Source of the DNA: Thermoanaerobacterium xylanolyticum LX-11
GTDB lineage: Bacteria; Bacillota; Thermoanaerobacteria; Thermoanaerobacterales; Thermoanaerobacteraceae
DNA: 64,000 nt
Direction of reading: 5' to 3'
Assembly: GCF_000189775.2 (NCBI RefSeq)
Contig: NC_015555.1
Span: forward strand, 1,375,001 to 1,439,000
Shown: piece by piece, positions 59,450 to 60,704 of the stretch
Position numbering within the stretch: position 1 is the stretch's first letter
Layout: each line of letters opens with the position of its first letter
Notes under the pieces: generated by a model
Databases searched by the model: none
Told to the model about the DNA's origin: nothing
Seen by the model: the letters and a program-made list of their open reading frames with translations, nothing else
Translations under genes and position numbers: made by a program

Positions 59450-59479
59450 GTTAGTGTTGACAAAGAGGAGGTGCACATG

Positions 59480-59668
59480 ATGAGAAAATGTGAAGTATGC
59501 GGAAAAACACCGATGGCAGGATATCAATACAGCCATTCCCACAGAAAATCAATCAAAAAATGGCAACCAAACTTAAAGCGTGTCAAAGCCATAGTGGACG
59601 GTACACCTGTAAGGTTGAATGTTTGCACAAAATGCTTAAAATCAGGAAGAGTTAAGAGAGCCATATAA
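59480..59668 (+). CDS. rpmB: 50S ribosomal protein L28
   Basis: A 62-residue protein with MRKCEVCGKTPMAGYQYSHS and VCTKCLKSGRVKRAI: two CxxC pairs mark the zinc-binding form of L28. Two adjacent ATGs follow GAGGAGGTG; 59480 has the better 8-base spacing and 59477 is possible. It is transcribed opposite to both neighbours, the same arrangement as rpmB between spoVM and yloU in Bacillus. Confidence 0.96.
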   Translation: MRKCEVCGKTPMAGYQYSHSHRKSIKKWQPNLKRVKAIVDGTPVRLNVCTKCLKSGRVKRAI

Positions 59669-59670
59669 AG

Positions 59671-59697
59671 AAAGACGTGCATATATGCACGCTTTTT
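59671..59697. terminator. Bidirectional terminator between rpmB and spoVM
   Basis: A perfect 16-base palindrome CGTGCATATATGCACG (59676-59691) flanked by AAAG and CTTTTT. The T-run serves rpmB on the plus strand. The minus-strand side begins at the spoVM stop (59698-59696). Confidence 0.85.
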
Positions 59698-59788
59698 ATT
59701 TTTTGCTCTTAGTAAATGAAGACAAAAATTTTTTTATAAAATCAGGAATTCTAATGTAGTATATTTTAGGTTCCTTTTTTTTACTCAT
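59696..59788 (-). CDS. spoVM: Stage V sporulation protein M (SpoVM), 30 aa
   Basis: A 30-codon ORF with ATG 59788 and GGGGG 6 bases upstream, reading MSKKKEPKIYYIRIPDFIKK then FLSSFTKSKK. Residues 8-15, KIYYIRIP, line up with KFYTIKLP of Bacillus SpoVM, including the key proline, and the rest keeps the amphipathic-helix pattern. Compared with the 26-residue Bacillus protein it has seven extra charged N-terminal residues. SpoVM marks the curved forespore membrane and anchors the SpoIVA coat base. Its place beside rpmB and thiN is exactly that of spoVM in Bacillus. An in-frame ATG two codons earlier touches the ribosome site. Confidence 0.85.
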   Translation of the reverse strand: MSKKKEPKIYYIRIPDFIKKFLSSFTKSKK

Positions 59789-59830
59789 ATACATCCCCCT
59801 TTATCCTTTTACTTCTAAACTATTTATCTG

Positions 59831-60016
59831 CTATTTGAAATATGCATTAATAAAATAACCAATCATTATTACAGCAAATCCTAAAAGTATCATCCACAGC
59901 CAACTTGGTATGTACAATACAATTATAAATATTCCAAGCGAAATTATAATATATCCAATTGAATAATTCAGTTTTTTATTTAATATTCTAACTTTTTTAT
60001 AAATTTTATTCCACAT
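59831..60016 (-). CDS. Small two-helix membrane protein, unknown function
   Basis: A 61-residue protein with a basic N-terminus (MWNKIYKKVRILNKKLNYSI) and two hydrophobic stretches (YIIISLGIFIIVLYIP; LWMILLGFAVIMIGYFI). I do not recognise the family. Its AAAGGAG ribosome site is well placed but lies in the 3' arm of a 16-base hairpin (60018-60065). It lies between thiN and spoVM, where Bacillus has no gene; a spore link is a guess from place. Confidence 0.7.
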   Translation of the reverse strand: MWNKIYKKVRILNKKLNYSIGYIIISLGIFIIVLYIPSWLWMILLGFAVIMIGYFINAYFK

Positions 60017-60017
60017 A

Positions 60018-60065
60018 AAAATCTGCTCCTTTCTTTCAATATTTTATTCGAAAGGAGCGGATTTT
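60018..60065 (-). promoter_or_regulatory. Hairpin covering the ribosome site of the small membrane protein
   Basis: AAAATCTGCTCCTTTC (60018-60033) pairs with GAAAGGAGCGGATTTT (60050-60065), 16 pairs with one G-T wobble and a 16-base AT-rich loop. On the minus strand the 3' arm ends in TTTTT, so it looks like a terminator after thiN, and it also sequesters the next gene's AAAGGAG. Confidence 0.75.
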
Positions 60066-60068
60066 GTG

Positions 60069-60704
60069 CTAATCTTTAGATTTTATCACAAGCAAATAAC
60101 CACTATTTATCTTTATCTTAATCTTCCTATCTGTAAATACATTGCTAATCCCATAAGGCATTTCTAAAGACATATCCTGACCAGATAAAGGATAAAATAA
60201 CCCTTCGGTGTAAATCCCTCTAACGTCTGCACTATACGGAATCAATGAAACTACATCACCTGATTTACCTTCCAATTCGATAAAGTCATCAATGAGATAG
60301 ACTTCATTTTTTTCGTTCAAAATTTTCCCCTTTATTTTTCTATTAAGAAGGTACAATAAAAGCGACAAATTTGCTAATGAATGATCAAATCTACTTCCTA
60401 TCGTCGCTAAATACACAATCTCATTAGCGCCTATCTCTATAGCCTTTATCGTTGCAAGTTGACTATCCGTCTCGTCTTTCATAGTAGGATGTTTTTCAAT
60501 GATTACACCTTGTTGCAAATAATAATCTATAATTTTATCATCTGCTGAATCCAAATCACCGACAATGTAATTTGGCATTATACCTAATTTGTAAGCTATA
60601 TTAGCACCACCATCCGCACAGATTACCACGTCACATTCATCGATTGCTTTTTTAAAATAGTTGGAATCTTTAAATTCTCCATTTGAAATAATACAAACCT
60701 TCAT
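60069..60704 (-). CDS. thiN: Thiamine pyrophosphokinase
   Basis: A 211-residue enzyme that makes thiamine diphosphate. VICADGGANIAYKLGIMPNY, IVGDLDSADDKIIDYY and LATIGSRFDHSLANLSLLLY are the catalytic and nucleotide-binding signatures. It overlaps rpe by 4 bases. No thiamine riboswitch could be fitted before it, as there is no leader. Confidence 0.97.
   Translation of the reverse strand: MKVCIISNGEFKDSNYFKKAIDECDVVICADGGANIAYKLGIMPNYIVGDLDSADDKIIDYYLQQGVIIEKHPTMKDETDSQLATIKAIEIGANEIVYLATIGSRFDHSLANLSLLLYLLNRKIKGKILNEKNEVYLIDDFIELEGKSGDVVSLIPYSADVRGIYTEGLFYPLSGQDMSLEMPYGISNVFTDRKIKIKINSGYLLVIKSKD

Follow-up and report, generated by a model that had tools for sequence, protein, structure and literature searches.

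SpoVM is the textbook peptide that senses membrane curvature and marks the developing spore for assembly of the coat. The published alignment of SpoVM sequences has a sole fully conserved residue, Pro9 (PMC5607322); curvature discrimination has been ascribed to the flexible N-terminus created by this proline (PMC12004969), and in B. subtilis K2 and I6 have been connected with cortex signalling and with the binding of SpoIVA (PMC5607322). The spoVM of C. difficile shares a transcript with the gene before it, which encodes a 50-aa protein, CD25622, described as primarily conserved among Peptostreptococcaceae (PMC5607322). The gene is often missed in annotation, as the initial annotation of the DNA considered here had remarked: Galperin et al. 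(2012, PMC3533761) amended 70 genomes, found no SpoVM in Thermoanaerobacter or in certain other genomes and raised the question of distant versions there, and the current Pfam and NCBIfam models miss the gene described below.

The window (64,000 nucleotides of the Thermoanaerobacterium xylanolyticum LX-11 genome, contig NC_015555.1, positions 1,375,001 to 1,439,000) contains a 30-codon gene that, on comparison of sequences, is very probably the only detectable spoVM of its genome and belongs to an extended, diverged subtype seen in Thermoanaerobacterium and a single sister genus only. The N-terminal arm of this subtype, the loss of spoVM in a neighbouring genus and the family of small companion proteins encoded beside spoVM are undescribed as far as the literature searched shows.

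The spoVM locus and its reading frame

The minus strand carries prkC, rsgA and rpe (named from their ORF translations), thiN, a 61-codon gene and spoVM, followed by convergent rpmB on the plus strand and then asp23 on the minus strand. The initial annotation had placed spoVM between rpmB and thiN; the locus is indeed that of spoVM, downstream of thiN and upstream of convergent rpmB, but thiN is not adjacent, since the 61-codon gene (60016..59831) intervenes. A gene intervening between thiN and spoVM is also found in many other members of the phylum, and the order thiN - 61 aa - spoVM - rpmB - asp23 agrees with spoVM loci across the phylum. The features of the locus are as follows.

59471..59668, plus strand: rpmB (ribosomal protein L28), convergent; PF00830 1.5e-21, TIGR00009 3.1e-23
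59672..59698, either strand: bidirectional terminator-like hairpin common to the spoVM and rpmB ends, overlapping the spoVM stop; from sequence
59696..59788, minus strand: spoVM, N-terminally extended subtype (MSKKKEP, KIYYIRIP and an amphipathic helix), assigned from ORF, Shine-Dalgarno sequence, conservation, dN/dS 0.11, synteny and profile matches
59744..59746, minus strand: codon of Pro15, equivalent of SpoVM Pro9 by sequence alignment and HMM alignment to 2MVH
59768..59788, minus strand: MSKKKEP extension, codons 1-7, a net 6 residues relative to canonical SpoVM; unchanged in amino acids among six distinct genus sequences, absent from the 57 SpoVMs sampled from other classes and from family f3
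59795..59802, minus strand: Shine-Dalgarno sequence AAAGGGGG, 6 nt 5′ of the spoVM ATG
59831..60016, minus strand: 61-aa hydrophobic companion with two membrane segments by inspection; motif G-x6-G-x8-P-x3-W-x4-G-x6-G
60069..60704, minus strand: thiN (thiamine pyrophosphokinase), TIGR01378 1.5e-56

The coordinates of spoVM had been given correctly at the outset, the strand unstated; the peptide, MSKKKEPKIYYIRIPDFIKKFLSSFTKSKK, is encoded on the minus strand with its ATG at 59788-59786 and its stop at 59698-59696. The ribosome site had rightly been called good: the Shine-Dalgarno sequence is the same throughout the genus except in the more distant congener G018 (TTAAGGGGG), and reads GTAAGGGGG in the sister-genus genome G001. 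A second in-frame ATG lies 5′ at 59794 (MYMSKKK...), and is not kept in sister species (ATA in T. butyriciformans, for example). Because this ATG is unconserved and would abut the Shine-Dalgarno sequence, the start was placed at MSKKKEP.

Conservation was assessed in the window's own family (f1, 20 genomes), its order (24 genomes) and its phylum (399 genomes). The window genome (2.53 Mb, one contig) has a single detected copy of spoVM. All nine genomes of Thermoanaerobacterium have the gene at the locus and eight have it intact, as does the sister-genus genome (MKNKKKPKIYFFKLPLFARKILSIFSKEKST), so that the frame is kept in related genomes. In T. saccharolyticum NTOU1 (G014, L033:2402-2488), the A-run in the Lys-Lys codons is longer by one A, through either a sequencing error or a real polymorphism, and the spoVM frame is shifted. 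G017 has the locus twice (L006, L014, L027, L040), at about 11 kb and at about 3003 kb, close to either end of one contig, which probably reflects untrimmed circular overlap in the assembly.

The small size of the ORF (30 codons) and the AT-rich region in which it lies might suggest a chance open frame within an intergenic gap, a reading that the conservation tests have already refuted. Within the genus dN/dS is about 0.11 (six sequences), indicating strong purifying selection, and frame, Shine-Dalgarno sequence and start are kept across a synonymous-saturating divergence (window species versus G013). Comparison of the window species with T. butyriciformans gives 24 nucleotide differences, 5/4/15 at first, second and third codon positions, and only 7 amino acid changes where 15.2 are expected under random mutation; none of 20,000 random-mutation trials was as conservative. 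It is scarcely more credible that the extension is an artefact of start-codon choice and that an internal start would give a canonical short SpoVM. The sample of 57 SpoVMs from other classes would favour that choice: they start with Met directly before Lys/Arg or, in 5 of the 57, one residue earlier, and none has the six-residue extension. However, codons 7-8 are CCT AAA and offer no ATG, GTG or TTG, and in every genome the Shine-Dalgarno spacing suits the extended start. Across the six distinct genus sequences, the six codons of the extension have zero amino acid change while their synonymous sites differ by 0.875 per site; on this ground the extended start is real, upholding the variant N-terminus of the initial annotation. 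In G018, MKNKKEP stands in place of MSKKKEP.

Met directly before Lys/Arg is the usual form of SpoVM and not a published defining feature, and the six-residue extension of the window peptide is accordingly treated as variation at the level of a subtype. The arm (SKKKEP or KNKKxP) has a net charge of +2, or +4 in the sister genus. In sister family f3 the locus holds a canonical short SpoVM, without the extension and preceded by its own Shine-Dalgarno sequence (MKVYVIKAPRFIKKLLSVFIKK; MRIYVIKAPNFIKKLLGVFIKK), and one of the two genomes of family f2 has a TTG-started form of SpoVM. This distribution suggests that the arm is derived in Thermoanaerobacterium and the one sister genus.

Relationship of the peptide to SpoVM

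Neither Pfam, NCBIfam nor PHROGs gave a credible match for the window peptide, PF08183 and NF033436 included, and the NF033436 cut-off is passed by none of the 24 order genomes. Matches to NF033436 occur in 73 of the 399 phylum genomes, and many SpoVM matches elsewhere fall below its curated cut-off, which is a recogniser and not a biological definition of SpoVM. Because the curated models are silent on the window peptide, SpoVMs were gathered from the whole phylum, both as NF033436 matches and as ORFs directly 3′ of the companion gene, the latter supplying further unrecognised ones.

When profile A5, built from the 57 SpoVMs outside the window's class, was run against the whole genome in six frames, the top match was the window ORF (1434699-1434767, minus strand, E=0.173), and A5 was likewise best at the spoVM locus in the congeners G012, G015 and G016. 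The locus was not among the genome-wide matches of profile A3 at E<=10; the broader A5 found it. With a smaller SpoVM profile from which family f1 was omitted, the window ORF ranked first of the window's 1343 open frames and was matched in score by only one of 5000 peptide shuffles, so that the KIYYIRIP motif on which the initial annotation had relied exceeds chance; with the sister family omitted as well, the ORF dropped to rank 4 in the window (32 of 5000 shuffles). The order's own profile, compared with 177,635 PDB sequences, had as its top match 2MVH, SpoVM of B. subtilis (E=0.024, with a 6-residue N-terminal gap); the genus-only profile A2 had no match in PDB. Since the class-free profile is best at the locus and the order's profile finds 2MVH, the gene was assigned as a spoVM ortholog of a new subtype. 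Profile searches for a second spoVM elsewhere in the genome found none. The top NF033436 match in the window genome (position 573708, E=0.51) is a fragment elsewhere and not a second spoVM.

Pro15 of the window peptide aligns with Pro9 of SpoVM. The equivalent of Lys2 is Lys8, which is kept in the genus, and the equivalent of Ile6 is Ile12 in the window's clade and Phe in the T. butyriciformans clade. The calculated helical moment of the segment after the proline is 0.59, versus 0.58 in B. subtilis (p=0.025 by shuffling); in G001 the corresponding segment has no clear amphipathicity (p=0.34). The window genome also encodes SpoIVA (TIGR02836, E=7e-255) and has PF12673/SipL-family matches. Elsewhere in the phylum, two SpoVM-like sequences (L184 of G333 and L187 of G374, MKIYAVKLHP...) have His at position 9 and Pro at position 10, despite the description of Pro9 as invariant.

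Alone, the SpoVM E-values are marginal; locus, intermediates and motif together make what we regard as a firm assignment. It leans on synteny and on the intermediates because the peptide resembles distant SpoVMs only weakly (with A5 genome-wide, E=0.17). The identity proposed at first, from placement and motif, is in this way borne out by the locus, the profile matches and the conserved proline with its Lys/aromatic motif.

The same weakness of similarity, together with the failure of the curated models, an N-terminus that is both novel and invariant, and a neighbouring genus that lost the peptide yet retains the 61-aa gene, could be read to mean that a conserved small peptide has drifted to another role, such as partner of the 61-aa membrane protein, and has ceased to function as SpoVM. 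This seems improbable, though less so than the artefact of start choice weighed above, given that the equivalents of Pro9 and Lys2, the aromatic/aliphatic pattern and the amphipathicity after the proline have been retained, that the class-free profile puts the ORF at the top of the genome, and that the C-terminus of SpoIVA is kept in the window's clade, including a run of four glycines near the published SpoVM contact.

The companion gene and the loss of spoVM

The companion of spoVM (MWNKIYKK...YIPSWLWMILLGFAVIMIGYFINAYFK), overlooked in the initial annotation, occurs at the locus in each of the 24 order genomes and has relatives in 69 of the 399 phylum genomes. Its alignment has invariant G, G, P, G and G and a near-invariant W; searches of Pfam, NCBIfam and PHROGs gave no credible match. 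Outside the order, 35 of 61 companions sit 12-168 nt upstream of a spoVM recognised by the curated model. Of the others, 20 were inspected, and a majority of these are followed immediately 3′ by an unrecognised SpoVM-like ORF. The companion family offers a starting point for locating spoVM genes overlooked by the models. AlphaFold, given a single sequence, predicted one long helix with high pLDDT (pTM 0.52), a result uninformative on a membrane hairpin. By analogy with CD25622-spoVM of C. difficile, spoVM is probably co-transcribed with the 61-aa gene upstream, and CD25622 may itself belong to the companion family.

Between thiN and the companion gene are two further features.

60018..60065, minus strand: hairpin, the 3′ arm of which holds the companion Shine-Dalgarno sequence; terminator-like for thiN; folds in 13 of 13 distinct family sequences
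60038..60049, minus strand: element with invariant GAATA in the hairpin loop, resembling a promoter -10 element; invariant columns in alignment A6, the promoter role being conjectural

The hairpin has z of -2.4 to -6.7 in the 13 distinct family sequences, and several pairs have changed on both sides. By appearance, the region 60014-60071 (minus strand) combines a terminator with an element that sequesters the Shine-Dalgarno sequence, and perhaps a promoter. A transcript begun just 3′ of the GAATA element would be without the 5′ arm of the hairpin and would leave the companion Shine-Dalgarno sequence free; read-through RNA from thiN might be terminated or left untranslated through the hairpin. 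A similar AT element is present in families f2 and f3, where the hairpin is missing. A scan for the sigma-E consensus picked out promoter-like elements, but their scores (10-13 of 15) were not significant, the best scores in shuffled sequence averaging about 11 and reaching 12-14, and an ATAT-rich element common to spoIVA upstream regions was not seen before the 61-aa gene.

In all ten genomes of a third genus (L016-L024, L026), probably Thermoanaerobacter, the end of rpmB lies no more than about 40 nt after a 60-aa companion and spoVM is gone from the locus. Profile searches, of limited sensitivity for such short diverged peptides, found no credible spoVM elsewhere in these genomes. Weak matches (G004, E=0.015; G011; G006) were to frames without a SpoVM-like ORF and were not common to the genomes. 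All ten genomes give strong matches to SpoIVA and to PF12673 (SipL) domains, and in their SpoIVA the G just before the three C-terminal glycines is replaced by S (R in one). The substituted position lies near the equivalent of G486, the published SpoVM contact in SpoIVA. A tie between this substitution and the loss of spoVM is suggestive only. G021 of family f2 (L039, L223) is a second, separate case of spoVM absent from the locus with the companion gene kept.

On the question raised by Galperin et al. (PMC3533761), one genus has a diverged spoVM and the other, probably Thermoanaerobacter, a clean absence at the locus. The latter genomes are candidates for natural SpoVM-less spore-formers.

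The extended subtype and described SpoVM systems

Following published work on B. subtilis and C. difficile, the mother cell would make a 30-residue amphipathic peptide that binds the outer forespore membrane with a preference for curvature and assists in bringing in and retaining SpoIVA, on which the coat is built. The arm directly precedes the K2 and I6 equivalents and the flexible segment before the proline; with its net charge of +2 to +4, it would stay in the mother-cell cytosol or on lipid head groups, ahead of the flexible segment. There it might add electrostatic membrane binding, a contact with SpoIVA, or both, perhaps offsetting the less hydrophobic helix. The initial annotation had held that the extension would change how the peptide enters the membrane; an effect on membrane sensing or SpoIVA binding is here only inferred. 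A natural, conserved, lysine-rich arm before the flexible segment offers a direct test of curvature models.

It is possible, although we put it forward tentatively and think it rather doubtful, that companion and SpoVM form an unrecognised two-gene unit in many non-Bacillus spore-formers and cooperate at the forespore membrane, that the arm in Thermoanaerobacterium contacts lipid, SpoIVA or the companion, and that companion and SpoIVA have outlasted the loss of SpoVM next door.

With SpoVM of B. subtilis (PF08183 SpoV; NF033436/NF011327; PDB 2MVH, 2MVJ), the window gene shares its locus between thiN and convergent rpmB, the short length of its peptide, the proline after a Lys-x-aromatic motif, the amphipathic segment after the proline and the presence of spoIVA in the genome. 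The window peptide differs in having six additional lysine-rich residues at the N-terminus, in escaping the curated models and in its less hydrophobic helix (mean 0.31 versus 0.68); the locus differs in the 61-aa gene after thiN, and the genome in its SipL-family genes. The short SpoVM of family f3 (L036, L038: MKVYVIKAPRFIKKLLSVFIKK) shares the locus and a similar helix after the proline (RFIKKLLSVF versus DFIKKFLSSF); unlike the window peptide, it is matched by A3, a profile that includes both f3 sequences (E about 2e-8), and that of G022 is also matched by the class-free A5 (E=1.8e-5). The CD25622-spoVM pair of C. difficile (PMC5607322) likewise has a gene of about 50-60 codons directly 5′ of spoVM, adjoining rpmB, in a clostridial SpoIVA-SipL context; the spoVM of C. 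difficile itself is largely dispensable.
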